Shown here in pieces: positions 7,448-64,000 of a stretch of DNA of 64,000 bases; position 1 is the first letter of the stretch, and every line of letters begins with the position of its first letter. The notes beneath the pieces are model-generated. The model had not been told where the DNA came from. It saw nothing but the letters and a program-made list of their open reading frames with translations, and searched no databases. This DNA is from Lacipirellulaceae bacterium (lineage in GTDB: Bacteria > Planctomycetota > Planctomycetia > Pirellulales > Lacipirellulaceae), in NCBI GenBank assembly GCA_040218535.1, contig JAVJRG010000009.1, positions 186,001 through 250,000 on the forward strand, in the 5' to 3' direction. Both the position numbers and the translations under genes were made by a program.

Positions 7448-7690
7448 TTGACAGGATTTACAGGATGGGCGTTCGGTTCAAGCAGGTCTGATAGACCCGA
7501 AGGGTCGTAAGCACGTAGCCAGGGGCGTGAGCCCCTGGAACGAAAAACAAAAAACATGGATAAGCCCCGAAGGGGCGAAAGTTGTTTTTAGTAAGACTAT
7601 TTCTGTCGCTCCTCCGGAGCTTGCGACTACCGAAACAACTAACCAGGGGCTGACGCCCCTGGCTACATGCTAACGCCCCTACGGGGCGAG
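7448..7690. repeat. Composite palindromic intergenic repeat
   Basis: This 298-base gap holds no gene. It has a TTGACAGGATTTACAGGAT arm near 7449 and several hairpins: CCAGGGGCGTGAGCCCCTGG at 7519-7538, GCCCCGAAGGGGC at 7564, GCTCCTCCGGAGC at 7608, CCAGGGGCTGACGCCCCTGG at 7643-7662 and CGCCCCTACGGGGCG at 7674-7688. The 7516-7538 and 7643-7666 blocks are inverted copies of each other, so the whole unit can fold on itself. Confidence 0.75.
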
Positions 7691-16090: not shown

Positions 16091-16187
16091 CGGAAGTGCA
16101 TGGGAATCGAACCCACCTGCGAAACGGCTGGCGCTCCGCACAACGGTTTTGAAGACCGCGACCGCCACCAGGCCGGCACGCACTTCC
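16091..16187 (-). tRNA. selC: tRNA-Sec (anticodon UCA)
   Basis: On the minus strand the gene begins GGAAGTGC and ends GCACTTCC plus discriminator G, an 8-bp acceptor stem as in bacterial selenocysteine tRNAs. The anticodon loop is CTTCAAA with TCA as anticodon. A long variable arm (TGCGGAGCGCCAGCCGTTTCGCA) and the T-loop GGTTCGATTCC follow. Total length is about 97 bases and CCA is not encoded. Its position 12 bases from the 3' end of the selD fusion gene supports the call. Confidence 0.95.
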
Positions 16188-58444: not shown

Positions 58445-59067
58445 GATGCAAGATAATCACCTAGAAGGGACTTAAGTTGCTTACGAGCTTGGTGAACCCG
58501 CCAGTACATTGTCGTTGTTGTGCAGCCAGCAACAGCCGCAGCCTGCTTGGCTGGAAGTTGCTCAATGGCTGTAAGCACAAGTGCAGCCCGAAGATCGGTC
58601 GAAAGCATGGAAAGTGCACTCTGAAGTTCTTTAGTCAACTCTGTACCTAAAGCTTGTTGTTCCGGTTGCACGTGGGGTTGAGCCTGGGTGTCACGATAAG
58701 AAACTACTTCCTCACTCCGGACATGTTTTTTCTGAGTGGCTTCCCGACGCAGAAATTCCTTACAGGTATTCAGGGCAACTCGATATAGCCAAGTCGAAAA
58801 CTGGGATCGTCCGCTGTACGAGCCAGGTTGGGTCAGTATTTTGAGGAACGTCTCTTGGGCAACGTCATCCGCTGAGGTATGGCACAATGTCATACGATAG
58901 GCCAAGTTGCGCACCCGACGTAGGTGACGCGCAACTAATTGGTCGAATGCCTCAGGGGCAGACGTCGATTGGTACTCGGCCAAGAGTTGCTCATCAGTAA
59001 GTCTTTTTTCGGAGGCGCCCACAAATATGGATCTTGTCTGCTCAGAATTGTGAGTACCTAATGTCAC
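58441..59067 (-). CDS. ECF RNA polymerase sigma factor (RpoE-like)
   Basis: A 208-residue sigma-70 family protein. Region 2 reads FDQLVARHLRRVRNLAYRMT and SADDVAQETFLKILTQPGSY, then FSTWLYRVALNTCKEFLRRE. Region 4 reads LSTDLRAALVLTAIEQLPAKQAAAVAGCTTTTMYWRVHQARKQL. It is the first gene of the six-gene minus-strand operon and probably autoregulates it. Confidence 0.95.
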   Translation of the reverse strand: MTLGTHNSEQTRSIFVGASEKRLTDEQLLAEYQSTSAPEAFDQLVARHLRRVRNLAYRMTLCHTSADDVAQETFLKILTQPGSYSGRSQFSTWLYRVALNTCKEFLRREATQKKHVRSEEVVSYRDTQAQPHVQPEQQALGTELTKELQSALSMLSTDLRAALVLTAIEQLPAKQAAAVAGCTTTTMYWRVHQARKQLKSLLGDYLAS

Positions 59068-59532
59068 TTCTAGAGTGGCCCTCTACTAGGTTAGATGCAG
59101 TCGAGCCAGAATCCTTGGCAACTACTGGCGAAAATACTCGAAATCTCAGGATTCTTGCGTATTGAGGAATGAGATTTCACCTCCCGCATAGGCAACTTCT
59201 CCTCGGCATTGACCTGATACCATGGCAGGCCTCGCGATTGACGGCAACCTAAGACTCCTCCGCCGTCGCGTTAGCCCTTGGTTTGAGGATTGGACGGTAC
59301 ACTCGATATGGGTTGACATATCAGTAGGCCTCCATGCATACAGGCGACCCTCAGGTGAGCCAAGCAGGGTCTCACCTAGACCAGAGATGCGACAACCTTA
59401 TCCGACACCCTCTCGAACTACTTGGGATCCCGATTGATTTTGAGTAACAAGAGAGCTCTTTACACGTTGTTGACAGGAAACAGCTGAGCAATCAGCCAGG
59501 AGGATTGCGAGCTGACCGAGAGAGGATTGAAG
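59068..59532. other. Intergenic region without a gene
   Basis: 465 bases upstream of the sigma-factor operon, which must contain its promoter on the minus strand. An open frame at 59222-59437 lacks protein-like features. Nothing else is recognised. Confidence 0.5.
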
Positions 59533-59576
59533 GCCTACCTTGTGAAAGCTTTCACAAAGTAGGCGCAGAATTTTTT
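59533..59576 (+). terminator. Strong hairpin with T-run
   Basis: GCCTAC, one unpaired C, TTGTGAAAGCTTTCACAA, one unpaired A and GTAGGC form a long stem, followed by TTTTTT at 59571-59576. No gene ends directly before it on the plus strand, so it may close an unseen transcript or mark the start of the array. Confidence 0.75.
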
Positions 59577-59677
59577 CCGAAATTTGTACGAACCTCGTGC
59601 CGAATTGGTACTCTTATACACAGACCAACGAAACATGGAGCCCTTTTGGGGGTATAGTTCAGTTAGAGGTAACCAAA

Positions 59678-59821
59678 ATGATGTATTCAAGACCAAGCTT
59701 CATAAGCTTACAGCCGAAACAGTCCTTTCCGGGATGTATAGCATTTGCCGTGTTGGCGAGTGAACAACCCGGTTACGCGCTCGCCGGCGAACAGAATCCC
59801 AGTGATCTGGGACGCTTATGA
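59678..59821 (+). CDS. Possible 47-residue small protein
   Basis: An open frame starting MMYSRPSFISLQPKQ with AGAGGT about 9 bases upstream, ending 28 bases before a strong terminator (59849-59880). The bases 59648-59674 just before it look like the 5' half of a tRNA (GGGGGTATAGTTCAGTTAGA). The unit may be a small protein, a small RNA or a broken tRNA; I cannot decide. Confidence 0.25.
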   Translation: MMYSRPSFISLQPKQSFPGCIAFAVLASEQPGYALAGEQNPSDLGRL

Positions 59822-59848
59822 CACTTGGTCGACTCTTTGATGAGCCAC

Positions 59849-59880
59849 AAGGCCCGGTGTCATAGACGCCGGGCCTTTTT
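59849..59880 (+). terminator. Rho-independent terminator
   Basis: GGCCCGG and CCGGGCC form a stem around a loop near 59858-59869, followed by five Ts. It closes the short unit before the tRNA array. Confidence 0.85.
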
Positions 59881-59923
59881 CTTTGGCTCCTGCCGATTGA
59901 AGAGGCTGATCCCAATCGAATTT

Positions 59924-59995
59924 GGGCTGGTGGCTGAGATGGTATAGCGGCGGTTTGAAGCACCGCATACGAGGATTCGAGCGCCTCCCAGCCCG
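59924..59995 (+). tRNA. tRNA-Phe (GAA)
   Basis: The acceptor GGGCTGG pairs with CCAGCCC. The anticodon stem GCGGT/ACCGC carries loop TTGAAGC. The T-arm has an A-G mismatch at the usually conserved 53:61 pair. The discriminator G is followed by CT. Confidence 0.8.
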
Positions 59996-60010
59996 CTGTT
60001 TTTAGTGATA

Positions 60011-60033
60011 CTGCGCGCACCCGGTGCGCGCAG
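60011..60033. other. GC-rich hairpin after tRNA-Phe
   Basis: CTGCGCGCAC and GTGCGCGCAG pair perfectly around CCG. It may be a processing or pausing element at the start of the structured-RNA region. Confidence 0.6.
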
Positions 60034-60034
60034 A

Positions 60035-60695
60035 ACTTGAAATGTACATGTCCGTGATGTCGCTCGGACACAAAACTGTACTGCCCCAGCATGGGCGTCG
60101 GCTTCCTCTTTGAGGTAGATAAACGAAAAGCTGGCCAGCGAGCAGCGTTTACCCGTTGCAACACTGGCGGTAAAGCCGGCGGAGATCTGTGTGGGAGCAG
60201 AGAAGCCGTCAAGTAACTGATGGTGTGAGTCGCCGTCCCACCGGCGGAATACTACCTGAAAGATCACGGATTAAGTGCGGTTATCGCGAAACGTGCTGGA
60301 CCGGTGGCGGAAGCCACGTCGGACTCACAATCCGAAGTGTCCGGGAAGTTGCTAATCCTTCGGGAGCGGCACCAAACCGTGCGTGTGACAGAGTCGAAGT
60401 GCCTACTGCGGACGCCGCAAGGTGTTCGTGCTGCCCGAAAGGGGATTGGCGGACTACTTCCCGGAGTAGGAAACCGATCGAGCTAGGTGAGAGTGTCCGA
60501 CGGGATAGTCGAGCCAAACCCAGAAGACTCGTTGCACTACTGCCTGCTGTTGGGCGGCGGAGACGTCAACAACAGAGGTGAAGGTGATGAAGGGTTTAAC
60601 ACGCCCGTGTGCAGACTCCGCTGAGTCGAAAGACGTTGATGCGGAGGGTCATCGCCAAGTCAGGATAGAGCTTGCGCTAAAACTGACTTTTTTTT
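60035..60695 (+). ncRNA. Candidate large structured noncoding RNA in the tRNA array
   Basis: About 650 bases without a convincing protein frame lie between tRNA-Phe and tRNA-Glu. Many short helices are visible. TGTCCG/CGGACA is at 60049-60070 and GCAGCG/CGTTGC at 60143-60160. GTGGC/GCCAC with a GGAA tetraloop is at 60304-60317. CGGA/TCCG with a CTCACAA loop is at 60320-60334. A cUUCGg loop is at 60356-60365. TGCGG/CCGCA is at 60407-60419, CCC-GAAA-GGG at 60434-60443, CTACT/AGTAG at 60454-60469 and GACTC/GAGTC at 60614-60627. It ends in a strong terminator. Signature sequences of RNase P RNA and tmRNA are not seen. Large ornate RNAs (GOLLD, ROOL classes) are known to occur beside tRNA clusters; membership is not tested. 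Confidence 0.55.
60657..60695 (+). terminator. Rho-independent terminator of the candidate RNA
   Basis: AAGTCAG pairs with CTGACTT, with an inner AGC/GCT helix, followed by a run of Ts to 60695. It separates the candidate RNA from tRNA-Glu. Confidence 0.85.
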
Positions 60696-60704
60696 GAACA
60701 ACAT

Positions 60705-60776
60705 GCCCCGTTGGTCTATTGGTAAGGATTGCAGGCTTTCAATCTGCAGATGAGGGTTCGATTCCCTCACGGGGTA
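60705..60776 (+). tRNA. tRNA-Glu (UUC)
   Basis: Acceptor GCCCCGT/ACGGGGT (G-U first pair), anticodon loop CTTTCAA, T-arm GAGGGTTCGATTCCCTC. The discriminator A is followed by CT. Confidence 0.9.
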
Positions 60777-60783
60777 CTAACGA

Positions 60784-60857
60784 CAGAACGTAGCGAAGTT
60801 TGGCATCGCGCTTGGTTTGGGACCAAGAGATCGTCGGTTCGAGTCCGACCGTTCTGA
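60784..60857 (+). tRNA. tRNA-Pro (UGG)
   Basis: Acceptor CAGAACG/CGTTCTG, anticodon stem CTTGG/CCAAG with loop TTTGGGA, T-arm GTCGGTTCGAGTCCGAC. The discriminator A is followed by CT. Confidence 0.9.
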
Positions 60858-60864
60858 CTGAAAT

Positions 60865-60950
60865 GGTAGTCGAGGGCTGGTTGCCCCCAACTCTATCGTT
60901 GTGGGCGGCTGATAACCGAGTTGCGCTGAGTTCAATTCCCGGGGCTACCA
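60865..60950 (+). tRNA. tRNA-Ile-like (GAU), enlarged D-arm
   Basis: Acceptor GGTAGTC/GGCTACC. The loop CTGATAA sits on only three paired bases (CGG/CCG). The D-region is about 32 bases instead of about 17. The T-stem has a mismatch. Possibly degenerate. Confidence 0.55.
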
Positions 60951-61030
60951 CTTTTAGAACTTTACGAACCTACAGGAGAAACAAGATGTCGACAGTCCTG
61001 CGATGCAAACGGATACGCCCAACCAACATT

Positions 61031-61102
61031 CGGGTTGTGGTGTAACGGCAGCATCCCTGGCTTTTAACCAGGTGGGTGTGGGTTCGAATCCTACCGGCCC
61101 GA
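61031..61102 (+). tRNA. tRNA-Lys (UUU)
   Basis: Acceptor CGGGTTG/CGGCCCG with two G-U pairs, anticodon stem CCTGG/CCAGG with loop CTTTTAA, normal T-arm. Followed by CT. Confidence 0.9.
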
Positions 61103-61106
61103 CTAC

Positions 61107-61179
61107 TGGCGTGTAGCTCAGTGGTGAGAGCAGCGACCTTATAAGTCGAAGGCCGAAGGTTCAATTCCTTCCACGCCAA
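61107..61179 (+). tRNA. tRNA-Ile (UAU)
   Basis: Acceptor TGGCGTG/CACGCCA, normal D-arm, anticodon loop CTTATAA (TAT) on a CGAC/GTCG stem. Bacteria usually read AUA with a lysidine-modified CAU tRNA, so this anticodon is uncommon. Confidence 0.85.
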
Positions 61180-61194
61180 CTTGAAAACAAACAT

Positions 61195-61267
61195 GGGACT
61201 GAGGTGTTAGCGGCAGCATCCCTGGTTCTTACCCAGGCGGCTGAGGGTTCGAGTCCCTCTGGTCCCA
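61195..61267 (+). tRNA. tRNA-Lys (CUU)
   Basis: Acceptor GGGACTG/TGGTCCC, anticodon stem CCTGG/CCAGG with loop TTCTTAC. Body closely similar to the Lys(UUU) gene, so probably a duplicate with a changed anticodon. Confidence 0.88.
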
Positions 61268-61291
61268 CTAGAAAAACAAAGCACTGGTCCG

Positions 61292-61374
61292 GGCACCGAC
61301 GCGTAGCGTTGGTCGGCGGCCAAGACTCCGCTTTCGTAAGGCGGCAAAGTCGGTTCGAGTCCGACCCGGTGCTC
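61292..61374 (+). tRNA. tRNA-Thr (CGU), enlarged D-region
   Basis: Acceptor GGCACCG/CGGTGCT, anticodon loop TTCGTAA on CCGCT/GGCGG, normal T-arm. About 8 bases longer than usual in the D-region, and the exact ends are uncertain by one base. Confidence 0.8.
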
Positions 61375-61408
61375 TGATGTTCTTTGACAATTTGGTTAGC
61401 AATATCTT

Positions 61409-61479
61409 GCGCCCATGATGTAGTGGCAGCCTTCCTGCTCGCCATGCAGGGTGTGTCGGTTCGATTCCGGCTGGGCGCA
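61409..61479 (+). tRNA. tRNA-Gly (GCC) with C33
   Basis: Acceptor GCGCCCA/TGGGCGC, anticodon stem CCTGC/GCAGG with loop TCGCCAT. Base 33 is C, not the near-universal U. It is the only array member not followed by CT. Confidence 0.8.
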
Positions 61480-61485
61480 TTTCTT

Positions 61486-61575
61486 CAGGACGTGGGAAAG
61501 TTTGGCCAGTATCTCTGGAAACGGGGCGCGTGCCTCGGGCGCACGAGATCGCTGGTTCAAATCCAGTCGTCCTGA
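61486..61575 (+). tRNA. tRNA-Pro (CGG) with hairpin in the D-arm
   Basis: Acceptor CAGGACG/CGTCCTG, anticodon stem CGTGC/GCACG with loop CTCGGGC. The D-region contains an extra CCAG-TATCT-CTGG hairpin, making the gene 90 bases. Confidence 0.8.
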
Positions 61576-61582
61576 CTCTTAT

Positions 61583-61657
61583 TGCGGTGGGTCCTGTGCT
61601 GGTACGGGAAGGCGACTGTTAATCGTCGCGACGCAGGTTCGATTCCTGCCTCCGCAG
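61583..61657 (+). tRNA. tRNA-Asn (GUU)
   Basis: Acceptor TGCGGTG/CTCCGCA with one T-T mismatch, anticodon loop CTGTTAA on GGCGA/TCGTC, normal T-arm, followed by CT. Confidence 0.85.
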
Positions 61658-61663
61658 CTCTAT

Positions 61664-61735
61664 GTGCCCTTGGCCGAGCGGCAAAGGTTCCAGCCTTCCA
61701 AGCTGGTTAGGTGGGTTCGACTCCCACAGGGCACT
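61664..61735 (+). tRNA. tRNA-Gly (UCC)
   Basis: Acceptor GTGCCCT/AGGGCAC, anticodon stem CCAGC/GCTGG with loop CTTCCAA, discriminator T as usual for glycine, followed by CT. Confidence 0.9.
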
Positions 61736-61754
61736 CTTTGAAGCGAAAAAACAT

Positions 61755-61829
61755 TCCGGGGTCGACGCTGCTGGTAGTGTTGCCTGCCTTTGAAGCAGGA
61801 GTCCGTAGGTTCGATTCCTACCCCCGGAA
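61755..61829 (+). tRNA. tRNA-Gln (UUG)
   Basis: Acceptor TCCGGGG/CCCCGGA, anticodon stem CCTGC/GCAGG with loop CTTTGAA, normal T-arm, followed by CT. Confidence 0.9.
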
Positions 61830-61846
61830 CTAACACGAAAAACTTA

Positions 61847-61917
61847 TGCGGGGTCGTTCAACGGTAGGACGGGGCGCTCTGAACGCTCTGATGTTGGTTC
61901 GAGTCCAACTCCCGCAG
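61847..61917 (+). tRNA. tRNA-Gln (CUG)
   Basis: Acceptor TGCGGGG/TCCCGCA, anticodon loop CTCTGAA on GGGCG/CGCTC, normal T-arm, followed by CT. Confidence 0.88.
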
Positions 61918-61922
61918 CTTAC

Positions 61923-62057
61923 GGAAGTCATGCGGCTGGAAGCAAGGCACGCCGCCGAGCGATAGCGAGGATGAAGGCTGTGCCGCGGTAGCTGAAGCAC
62001 AGCTTGAAAACAGTTGGTCGCTCGCGCGATTTGGGGGTTCGAGTCCCTCGACTTCCG
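61923..62057 (+). tRNA. tRNA-Ser-like (UGA?), 135 bases with a large insertion
   Basis: A perfect acceptor GGAAGTC/GACTTCC and T-arm GGGGGTTCGAGTCCCTC frame an unusually long body. CTTGAAA, as in Ser(UGA) loops, lies before a variable-arm-like TCGC-TCGC-GCGA hairpin. The anticodon stem is not paired well, and about 45-60 extra bases lie in the D/anticodon part. Isotype uncertain; possibly broken. Confidence 0.5.
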
Positions 62058-62065
62058 CTGAATAT

Positions 62066-62138
62066 GGTCCTGTCGTCTAGCGGCTAAGGCAGCTTCCTTA
62101 CAAGAAGATGATCGGTGGTTCGAGTCCACCCAGGACTA
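62066..62138 (+). tRNA. tRNA-Val (UAC)
   Basis: Acceptor GGTCCTG/CAGGACT, anticodon loop CTTACAA on CTTC/GAAG, normal T-arm GGTGGTTCGAGTCCACC, followed by CT. Confidence 0.88.
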
Positions 62139-62149
62139 CTTTTAACGAT

Positions 62150-62223
62150 GCCCGGATACGCCAATAGGTCGAGCGGCTCGGCTTAAACCCGAGTGTTTGC
62201 AGGTTCGATTCCTGCTCTGGGTA
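62150..62223 (+). tRNA. tRNA with Leu anticodon (UAA), no long variable arm
   Basis: Acceptor GCCCGGA/TCTGGGT, anticodon stem CTCGG/CCGAG with loop CTTAAAC. The variable loop is only 5 bases (TGTTT), whereas bacterial leucine tRNAs normally carry a long arm. Confidence 0.82.
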
Positions 62224-62228
62224 CTAAT

Positions 62229-62302
62229 GGCTCGGTAGGCAATTGGCAGACCACCTTGGCTTAGAACCAGGGATGCTGTGGGTTCGAGTCCCACCTGGGC
62301 CA
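62229..62302 (+). tRNA. tRNA with Leu anticodon (UAG), no long variable arm
   Basis: Acceptor GGCTCGG/CTGGGCC, anticodon stem CTTGG/CCAGG with loop CTTAGAA, short variable loop, normal T-arm, followed by CT. Confidence 0.82.
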
Positions 62303-62318
62303 CTACAAGAGCAACATT

Positions 62319-62393
62319 GTCCTCGTGGAGCAGCTTGGAGTGCTCGCCACCCTGTCAAGGTGGAGGCCGTGGGTTCAAATCCCATCGGGGACG
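62319..62393 (+). tRNA. tRNA-Asp (GUC)
   Basis: Acceptor GTCCTCG/CGGGGAC, anticodon stem CCACC/GGTGG with loop CTGTCAA, discriminator G typical for Asp, followed by CT. Confidence 0.9.
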
Positions 62394-62412
62394 CTCTTAA
62401 TTGTGGAATGCA

Positions 62413-62473
62413 GAATTCGGAATGCGGATTGAAAGCCAACAATTCCGAGATCCGCATTCCCAAATCCGAATTT
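62413..62473. repeat. Inverted repeat within the tRNA array
   Basis: GAATTCGGAATGCGGATT at 62413 is mirrored by ATCCGCATTCCC and AATCCGAATTT up to 62473. A longer hairpin spacer between tRNA-Asp and tRNA-Leu(CAA). Confidence 0.75.
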
Positions 62474-62478
62474 GAATT

Positions 62479-62556
62479 GGCGCGGTACGCAAACTGGCAA
62501 ACAGGCGGAGCTCAAACCTTCGTGACTGTTTGTGGGTTCGACTCCCACCCGTGCTA
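62479..62556 (+). tRNA. tRNA with Leu anticodon (CAA), short variable loop
   Basis: Acceptor GGCGCGG/CCGTGCT, anticodon loop CTCAAAC on CGGAG/CTTCG, variable loop about 9 bases, D-arm sequence shared with the Leu(GAG) gene at 63907. Confidence 0.8.
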
Positions 62557-62563
62557 CTTACTT

Positions 62564-62650
62564 GGGTTGTGCTCCTCGCGGCTGACTGTAAATCAGCTGT
62601 CTCAAAACAAGCGGGGTGGCCGACGAGAGGTTCAATTCCTTCACGACCCA
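62564..62650 (+). tRNA. tRNA-Tyr (GUA)
   Basis: Acceptor GGGTTGT/ACGACCC, anticodon stem GCTGA/TCAGC with loop CTGTAAA, and a long variable arm as expected for bacterial Tyr. Followed by CT. Confidence 0.88.
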
Positions 62651-62662
62651 CTCGATACATAA

Positions 62663-62733
62663 GGCCCGTTGGTCTAGCGGCAGGATGCGAGTCCCTCAAA
62701 CTCGCGGCACGGGTTCGATTCCCGTACGGGCTA
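62663..62733 (+). tRNA. tRNA-Glu (CUC) with C33
   Basis: Acceptor GGCCCGT/ACGGGCT, stem CGAGT/ACTCG with loop CCCTCAA. Body related to the Glu(UUC) gene. Base 33 is C instead of U. Confidence 0.82.
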
Positions 62734-63165
62734 CTAAAGATAAGGGCGCTCACGAGAATGGGTTATGCGACCATATCGATTGATGTCGTATTCGCGATAC
62801 TCCTGAAGAAATGCGTGAAGCCCGTTCTTGTCACGCTCGGCGCGAAACGCATCCCAGGTTTCAAAGAACTTTGGAATTGTTTCAACGTCATCACCATATT
62901 TCTTGATGAAGTAGTATTCCCAAGGTGTACACGGATCTAGGCCACGTCTTAGATGCAGCCATTCTAGGAATCCATCGAACAGACTGTTCTCCGGAAGATA
63001 ATCCAATAATGCGATGTCGTAACCTCTCAAAAAGGAGATGAGAGGAGCGAATCCATACTCACCAAAAAACATGTGGAGACTTCTATAGTGCTCGCGAACT
63101 TCGGGATCATCAAGGAGCTCATTCACAGTGCGATTAGCATCGAAGGGTTCGCAACGCTCAGGCAT
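62734..63165 (-). CDS. Hypothetical protein antisense within the tRNA array
   Basis: A 143-residue acidic protein rich in aromatic residues (HYRSLHMFFGEYGFAPLISF, DPCTPWEYYFIKKYGDD). No signal peptide or membrane segment, and no recognised family. Its stop codon abuts the 3' end of tRNA-Glu(CUC), and it is on the opposite strand to the tRNAs. Lower GC than the flanking chromosome, so possibly acquired. Confidence 0.65.
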   Translation of the reverse strand: MPERCEPFDANRTVNELLDDPEVREHYRSLHMFFGEYGFAPLISFLRGYDIALLDYLPENSLFDGFLEWLHLRRGLDPCTPWEYYFIKKYGDDVETIPKFFETWDAFRAERDKNGLHAFLQEYREYDINRYGRITHSRERPYL

Positions 63166-63247
63166 ATCGACTCAGTCTCCAATCTTGTCAATGTCAGGAT
63201 CGTAAGGATTCATTATATAAAGATCTATGGTCAAACGAATCGATTAG

Positions 63248-63316
63248 CGCGGGTGAGCCAGTGCTCAGCCGGGTCTCATAAGCCTGGACCGTCGGGTGCG
63301 ACACCCGAACCCGCCA
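63248..63316 (+). tRNA. tRNA-Met-like (CAU), shortened D-arm
   Basis: CGCGGGT/ACCCGCC leaves base pair 1:72 unpaired (C-C), a feature of initiator tRNAs. The loop CTCATAA holds CAT. The D-loop is reduced to 4 bases without the GG pair, and the T-loop is TGCGACA instead of TTCRANN. Probably degenerate. Confidence 0.6.
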
Positions 63317-63345
63317 CTTAATCATGTATGCATAGTCACATGGTA

Positions 63346-63837
63346 TCACCGTTTCCAGAAATACAGGACTTCTTCGTGCCAGTAATACAAAATCCAATCA
63401 CCAGAAAAAGGAAGAATCGCGACGTCGGCACTAAGCGGATAACAGAAGTCATCCCAGTAATCAATAAACGTTGCGAGTCGAACTAGTGCGGCAGTGTCGT
63501 TGTCCCAGGAGATAAATGCGCTGCCATCGGGAGACGGAAGAACTTCACAAAGCCACTTATATGCTCCTGGCTGTTCGCCAGAGGTATCAAATGATTCGAC
63601 TACTTGTTTATCCACCGCTGACTGCAGTTGAGTACCCGTTCGACCGACGATGCGAAGCGGAATCGGTTTCAGTAAATTCTCAAGGATTGTGTCCAATTCA
63701 TTTGCCTTGTGTACCTTCAAAGGCTGGATCGATGCAAGCACGTCACTCGGTAGCAGATTCCATTTCGGGTCCGTCCATCGCCAACGCAAAGAAAACTCAT
63801 CCATAGTCAGGAGATCATTCGGTTCAACAGTCAACAC
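63346..63837 (-). CDS. Hypothetical protein (possible immunity-type), antisense in array
   Basis: A 163-residue protein with no signal peptide. The C-terminus (SADVAILPFSGDWILYYWHE followed by EVLYFWKR) has the aromatic, mixed strand pattern of small immunity or SMI1-like proteins, but I do not recognise the family. Same strand as the 62734 gene, with a tRNA-like gene between them on the other strand. Confidence 0.6.
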   Translation of the reverse strand: MLTVEPNDLLTMDEFSLRWRWTDPKWNLLPSDVLASIQPLKVHKANELDTILENLLKPIPLRIVGRTGTQLQSAVDKQVVESFDTSGEQPGAYKWLCEVLPSPDGSAFISWDNDTAALVRLATFIDYWDDFCYPLSADVAILPFSGDWILYYWHEEVLYFWKR

Positions 63838-63906
63838 AACAACATAGTCTCGCTGTGACAGAAACGTTTAGTTTCGGAGCATTGGAAAGAAGTTCTAGCA
63901 AGTCAC

Positions 63907-63982
63907 GACTGGGTACGCAAACTGGCAAAGCGATCAGGTCGAGAGCCTGATGATTTTGTGGGTTCGACTCCCACCCTAGTCA
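63907..63982 (+). tRNA. tRNA with Leu anticodon (GAG), C33, short variable loop
   Basis: Acceptor GACTGGG/CCTAGTC, stem TCAGG/CCTGA with loop TCGAGAG (C at position 33), variable loop 7 bases. Followed by CT. The array probably continues beyond the window (GATCCCGTAGAG at the edge). Confidence 0.78.
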
Positions 63983-64000
63983 CTCAATGATCCCGTAGAG

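Follow-up and report, generated by a model that had tools for sequence, protein, structure and literature searches.

The locus raises the question of what occupies the roughly 650 bases that separate two neighboring tRNA calls in the window, i.e., the whole stretch of DNA analysed, 64,000 nucleotides from a Lacipirellulaceae bacterium. The first-pass annotation had proposed a large structured RNA within a tRNA array and had seen no credible protein frame in it. Both proposals held: the former was borne out by the alignment fold, the covariation and the position between tRNA calls, and the latter by the absence of a conserved frame in ten copies. The structured RNA core was placed at 60050–60689 on the forward strand on the basis of BLAST/nhmmer homologues and covariation; it is ∼640 nt long, apparently non-coding, and contains 32 helices by the count of the tool used, together with three pseudoknots. 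It lies at the head of a tRNA array, flanked by a tRNA-Phe-like gene (59924–59996) on its 5′ side and by tRNA-Glu (60705–60777) on its 3′ side, and the array (60705–63983, forward strand) runs past the end of the window. The comparative evidence makes it nearly certain that a conserved structured RNA exists at this locus and that it belongs to a previously unknown class of large structured RNAs.

Homologues comprised ten full-length copies and one truncated copy, all within the window's own class. After removal of duplicates, the full-length copies were those of the window and of genomes G021, G358, G056, G055, G036, G443, G397, G398, and G603, and the truncated copy was that of G376, which retains only the 5′ part (about 180 nt). 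In the following counts of genomes with homologues, the window's own genome is included where it was sampled. Matches were obtained by DNA search in 5 of 59 relatives and, within the order, in 7 of 396 genomes, one of them partial. An exact 24-base pattern recovered seven genome-contig records, including those of Roseiconus nitratireducens JC645 and Aeoliella straminimaris ICT_H6.2. R1, a 167-position covariance model of the 3′ part, was applied at four levels: the class (matches in 7 of 397 genomes), the phylum (2 of 392), the order to which G443 belongs (2 of 170), and the family that includes G358 (3 of 241); stricter filters were used in these four surveys, so weak matches can be lost. Application of R1 to seven genomes found six of them, G376 being missed because its copy keeps only the 5′ part. 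The RNA was thus present in 0.5–1.8% of genomes in the five larger samples, and owing to this low frequency, it must be considered dispensable. Pairwise identity among the ten copies ranged from 72.9 to 85.5%, with a mean of 83.9% within host families (6 pairs) vs. 77.4% between them (39 pairs). Phylogenetic analysis placed the two copies of family f1 together and the two of family f2 together, each with 100% support; the rest was weakly resolved, with G603 (f22) standing beside an f15 copy at 32% support. Inheritance at the family level with frequent loss is a possible reading that fits this distribution, and transfer is not excluded.

Folding of the window copy alone gave a z score of −2.80, and none of 20 shuffles was equally stable. 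The reverse strand, folded alone, gave −2.70, close to the forward value, and hence a single sequence proves little. The comparative analysis was carried out on alignment A5, consisting of the ten full-length sequences aligned with MAFFT by sequence and not fitted to structure; the truncated copy (L008 of G376) was included in alignment A1 and left out of A2–A5, and duplicate loci were counted once per genome. RNAalifold gave −393.1 for this alignment, as compared with −272.2 (SD 9.4) for 30 column shuffles (z = −12.9), which preserved the gap pattern and conservation class and did not preserve dinucleotides. The alignment contained 191 nested pairs, with standard pairs in 96.4% of cells. Compensatory changes were observed in 62 of these 191 pairs; the shuffled mean was 25.8, none of 500 shuffles reached as high a count, and slid controls gave 9–19. 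It should be noted that these controls count sequences and not independent events, that only ten sequences were available, and that several helices, including the long helix closing the 5′ domain, showed no compensatory pair. The strand was indicated by 254 G-U cells vs. 20 A-C cells and by the energy of the forward alignment (−393) vs. the reverse (−317).

The core could be divided into four domains on the forward strand. The 5′ domain (60050–60271; alignment helices 1–12) is bounded by the above closing helix (60050–60058 with 60263–60271), which encloses several hairpins. The second domain (60275–60382) contains a variable stretch at about 60298–60336, and in the third (60383–60537), a long helix closes a multibranch junction with GNRA hairpins. 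The 3′ domain (60541–60689) is the most conserved, and it was from window 60525–60692 and its homologues that R1 was built. A search of unpaired columns in the same alignment yielded 14 candidate extra helices, of which the three best cross the nested fold and are, therefore, pseudoknots: 60088–60092 with 60293–60297 (2 of 5 pairs compensatory), 60149–60153 with 60169–60173 (4 of 5), and a loop–loop pairing of 60191–60195 with 60237–60241 (2 of 5), all on the forward strand. Together, 8 of their 15 pairs were compensatory and 98% of cells were paired, the slid controls giving at most 2. The pseudoknots exceeded all 500 shuffles on four of five measures; on the fifth, further pair types, they were matched by 131 of 500. 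They were selected as the best of the 14 candidates on the very alignment that tested them. All three could form within one molecule, and neither an oligomer nor an intermolecular kissing loop of the kind conserved in ROOL is therefore shown. The rate of invariance was nearly equal in unpaired, non-gappy columns (113 of 247) and paired columns (188 of 382) across the ten sequences, and several apical loops were invariant in all copies. An invariant 7-nt complementarity was also seen between alignment columns 316–322 and 437–443, for which a real contact is not established.

Several of the local helices had been described at first reading as capped by GNRA or UUCG tetraloops, and this was found to hold in part: GNRA is present in ten of ten copies at three loops (60417–60420, 60437–60440, and 60560–60563), the UUCG loop at 60359–60362 is retained in some copies only, and the GGAA hairpin falls inside the variable stretch. 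The accompanying claim of a textbook terminator failed as a conserved feature. The 3′-terminal hairpin (60657–60689, forward strand), the lower helix of which has compensatory changes in four of seven pairs, is followed in the window by eight T residues (60688–60695), and this T run is not conserved in the homologues. The stem is, therefore, better read as part of the RNA, and its interpretation as mainly a terminator was rejected. A pattern scan for terminators did not list it.

A protein-coding gene was rejected, as no frame is shared and the indels do not fall in threes: every frame in every copy contains at least one stop, of 87 indels scored against the window copy, 78 have a length not divisible by three, and the longest stretch open in all ten copies from a common column is 45 codons on the forward strand and 53 on the reverse. 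ORFs overlapping the RNA do resemble one another between loci, owing to the conservation of the underlying DNA. The fold, covariation, strand, and frame evidence combined identify a structured, non-coding RNA.

No known RNA family could be assigned to it. The window RNA matched no Rfam family at gathering score, and cmscan of window 59800–60800 against all 4227 Rfam families (E up to 10) gave no match to GOLLD, ROOL, or RNase P; the sole hits on the RNA at this cutoff, a riboswitch (E = 1.3) and an antisense family (E = 6.3), were far below thresholds and at chance level. Likewise, cmscan of five homologue loci (E up to 1) and three more (E up to 10) showed no family overlapping the RNA. Membership of any Rfam family was hence rejected, there being no significant match in the window or in the eight homologue loci. 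RNase P RNA of bacterial type A is also large and folded, with tetraloop hairpins; it was rejected, as RF00010 was located elsewhere in ten of ten genomes and nowhere in the region. tmRNA was rejected in the absence of both ARAGORN and Rfam matches. The statement of the first-pass annotation that signatures of RNase P RNA and tmRNA are missing thus held, and its suggestion of a divergent or new class was supported. It had named a significant hit to a common RNA such as RNase P, a lack of covariation, and a conserved protein frame as findings that would refute the RNA; the checks gave no significant Rfam hit on the RNA, strong covariation, and no conserved frame. No description of the RNA was encountered in the literature searched, the coverage of which was incomplete.

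The flanking features had been taken as tRNA genes, which required correction on the 5′ side, since the tRNA-Phe call is not an ordinary tRNA. In general, the G53-C61 pair is near universal in tRNAs; it was present in 46 of 46 tRNA calls from the rest of the window's genome and in all 18 other ARAGORN tRNAs of the window's array. The Phe-like element (59924–59996, forward strand) carries A53.G61 in its place. Seven of the 11 copies of the RNA have such an element on their 5′ side (the window; L009:9978–10052; L010:9788–9860; L011:11154–11226; L014:7684–7756; L038:4550–4641; L031:2411–2503). A53.G61 is found in those of the window, G021, G358, G056, and G376, and five genomes share the same T arm. 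The element of G397 has G53.A61 and an insertion in the D loop, and in that of G036 the T arm carries an insertion. T arms were located by a score favoring pairing and a TTC loop, and the placement in G036 is unreliable owing to its insertion. An ordinary tRNA-Phe is present elsewhere in the window's genome (L059). It is likely, as inferred from the missing G53-C61 pair, that the "tRNA-Phe" is no working tRNA but a conserved tRNA-like element; a functional tie between this element and the RNA is an inference only. No tRNA or tRNA-like match was found in ∼1 kb upstream of the copies in G055, G443, G398, and G603, and excision by tRNA processing cannot, therefore, be universal.

The array that follows was found to be distinct from the remaining tRNAs of the genome. 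Its members account for 21 of the 67 model-called tRNAs and have a median score of 52.6 bits vs. 66.35 for the other 46 (p = 1e-5), the tRNA model scores covering 150 of 185 candidates in the window's genome. The other 46 cover 18 of the 19 anticodons in the window's part of the array. Model scores and anticodons thus mark the array as a second set of tRNAs, one more divergent than the rest of the genome's tRNAs. Three stretches of the array (60866–60951, 61485–61577, and 61922–62058) appeared by eye to be tRNA-like with extra internal sequence where ARAGORN was silent, and the array may possibly contain decayed or unusual tRNAs.

Location in a tRNA array was observed for four of the ten full-length copies (window, G021, G358, and G056), in each of which the RNA directly follows the Phe element at the array head, and the truncated copy of G376 occupies the same place; there are thus five such genomes. 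None of the other six full-length copies lies in a tRNA array; two of the six show array traces: in G397, a Phe-like element on the 5′ side and a Glu-like sequence on the 3′ side (75% over 65 nt), and in G036, a Phe-like element scoring 33.2 bits. The persistence of copies without an array, two with such traces, indicates that the RNA can outlive the array, and its presence in array-less genomes indicates that it is not merely an array leader or spacer. On the 3′ side of the RNA, two tRNA-Ala occur at about 0.9 kb in G036 and a tRNA-Cys at about 1.3 kb in G603, and no ARAGORN tRNA was found in the 9.7–15.5 kb examined in G055, G443, G397, and G398. In G398, a tRNA-like sequence 3′ of the RNA was noticed by eye and had no BLAST match at 1e-3. 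The same genome carries, ∼340 bases 3′ of the RNA (L033:2013–2094), a segment to which microRNA families gave scores on both strands (E about 3e-6, below thresholds), as expected of a near-perfect inverted repeat.

Upstream of the RNA, a boxA-like motif, TCTTT(G/A)(A/G)CAATT, was identified for six of the 11 copies; the remaining five, the window's own among them, lack it there. It also occurs inside two arrays, in both cases in the gap between tRNA-Thr and tRNA-Gly (window 61381–61392, forward strand; G376, L014:8676–8687). Overall, nine hits were obtained in 563,712 strand-bases of 15 loci, eight of them in RNA or array context and one elsewhere, the motif having been defined from the same loci in which it was counted. 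The motif resembles rRNA boxA in its E. coli form, a likeness without support as yet from the rRNA operons of planctomycetes. Its presence would be accounted for if a long untranslated transcript were subject to NusB-type antitermination, an inference that may as readily prove wrong as right. The TTGACA within the motif was considered as a sigma-70 element and dropped, as no −10 box was seen by eye at the right distance; no sigma-70-like promoter was found in 59000–60900, where 1.1 were expected. A terminator-like hairpin, possibly an attenuator, lies 5′ of the tRNA-like element at 59849–59877 (forward strand) and resembles sequences upstream in several other loci, including those of G055 and G603. 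Terminator-like sites in the region numbered 2 vs. 1.9 expected, so that only the cross-locus similarity supports this hairpin. A GC-rich hairpin (60011–60033, forward strand) separating the RNA from the tRNA-like element was read by eye, as was a GCGC-rich stretch 5′ of the boxA-like motif in several other copies.

No protein partner of the RNA was found. The only neighbor protein in common was an SPFH/Band_7 (slipin-like) protein, encoded in three loci (L015:5745–7007, L010:15808–16656, and L024:4986–5900), after the array in the window's genome, near the array end in G358, and after the RNA in G398. A gene for a very large TPR protein with a C39-peptidase-like domain was also observed 3′ of the array (L015:8203–13287). 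RtcB and TROVE/Ro were not found in the window's genome (95.8% complete). Among ten genomes searched, RtcB was present in nine and a TROVE match in three, on contigs other than that of the RNA in these draft assemblies. An RtcB or Ro RNA-repair system was rejected on these grounds.

The setting recalls several described systems. Phages and prophages carry the large ornate RNAs GOLLD and ROOL, which are often found close to tRNA islands, assemble into RNA-only cages, and have poorly understood functions (PMC12286853); in mycobacteria, GOLLD is frequently co-located with large tRNA clusters, and horizontal transfer has been argued (PMC9569102). The comparison with these RNAs drawn at first reading held for genomic setting and size class and not for homology. 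Like GOLLD, the planctomycete RNA is a large ornate bacterial RNA associated with tRNA clusters; however, it shows no GOLLD match and no phage-record match, is about 640 nt long whereas many GOLLD members exceed 800 nt, and is conserved in its 5′ part too. With ROOL, it shares a similar length (659 nt in ROOL env-120), pseudoknots, the tRNA-island setting, and the lack of a known protein partner (PMC12286853). It differs in having no ROOL match, in not being found in the searched phage and virus collections, and in being preceded by the tRNA-like element (7/11) and the boxA-like motif (6/11). The planctomycete RNA shares the niche and size class of GOLLD and ROOL as a chromosomal RNA without detectable homology to them. 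The trn array of Anabaena PCC 7120 shows no expression under normal culture conditions and is switched on by antibiotics that target translation, and deletion of its repressor raises expression of a slipin-family gene (PMC10272220). In both systems, a supplementary tRNA array accompanies a housekeeping set, and the array in the window's genome is followed by an SPFH/Band_7 gene; in contrast, no large RNA is mentioned in the relevant sections on Anabaena (PMC10272220).

That the RNA is non-coding and trans-acting is likely. The fuller proposal, that this large, ornate, non-coding RNA forms a class of its own and acts in trans as a folded RNA, is favored by a modest margin, there being no transcript evidence. 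The steps that follow are inferred. The RNA would be transcribed as part of an untranslated array transcript. boxA-like (NusB/S10-type) antitermination would hold the polymerase on the long untranslated RNA, for and against which we see little to choose, and tRNA-processing enzymes would release the RNA at the flanking tRNA-like element and tRNA-Glu, a step for which the balance is equally fine. The product may be an architectural RNA, forming an RNA-only or ribonucleoprotein assembly with a GOLLD/ROOL-like action, although we lean slightly against this, and it may possibly be used with the accessory tRNAs under translation stress. A bolder reading, possible but unlikely, is that planctomycete chromosomes contain a two-part RNA machine, made up of a conserved tRNA-Phe mimic and the ornate RNA of 640 nt, in which a self-assembling RNA or RNP particle holds, shields, or senses tRNAs under translation stress, and which selection keeps after the adjoining tRNA genes decay.

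Among the rival explanations, a cis-acting leader, in which the RNA and the terminator-like hairpin would regulate the downstream tRNA array in a riboswitch- or antitermination-like manner, is unlikely. In its favor are the position at the array head in five loci (one truncated), behind a terminator-like hairpin similar between loci, and the boxA-like motifs nearby. Against it stand the four full-length copies with no ARAGORN tRNA downstream (G055, G443, G397, and G398), and the size and complexity of the RNA exceed those of known leaders. Also unlikely, though slightly less so, is a mobile-element passenger, a GOLLD/ROOL-like RNA serving a phage or integrative element and having arrived with the tRNA array. 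The patchy distribution, the linkage to a redundant tRNA array as for GOLLD in mycobacteria (PMC9569102), the weak grouping of G603 among the copies of another family, and the match of the Band_7 proteins to phrog_200, a family shared with phages, speak for it. However, phage records gave no match to the RNA; one plasmid search was matchless, and another gave only six short matches (14–18% of the 168-base query, E up to 10). Six exact-pattern scans of IMG/VR, by which diverged copies could be missed, returned three contigs (L016, L017, and L046), all rejected as short chance matches. No integrase, phage, or plasmid family was present among the 39 neighbor proteins picked for Pfam analysis, of which 15 matched nothing, and the copies are more alike within host families than between them, as given above. 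A phage or plasmid origin was hence rejected as far as the searched collections reach. Slightly less likely than either is a ribozyme, a tRNA-processing RNA, or a ribosome-directed RNA, in which the conserved unpaired stretches would be an active site on tRNAs or ribosomes; the invariant unpaired columns and apical loops support it, but all ten genomes have a separate RNase P RNA, no Rfam match is significant, and protein binding or tertiary contacts fit the invariant loops equally well.

Returning to the preferred reading, a new class of large, trans-acting structured RNA, few bacterial RNA classes of such size and complexity are known. The presence in the GOLLD/ROOL niche of a chromosomal RNA without detectable homology to either suggests that the pairing of large ornate RNAs with tRNA arrays has more than one origin, and such repeated origin would speak for a common function connected with tRNAs or translation. 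As copies exist in the two named isolates, R. nitratireducens JC645 and A. straminimaris ICT_H6.2, expression, structure, and deletion are open to experiment. Elsewhere in the window, a selenocysteine tRNA gene was located at 16091–16187 (reverse strand), and two Acido-Lenti-1 RNAs of Rfam were identified at 7493–7538 (reverse strand) and 7643–7688 (forward strand), ∼100 bases apart on opposite strands.
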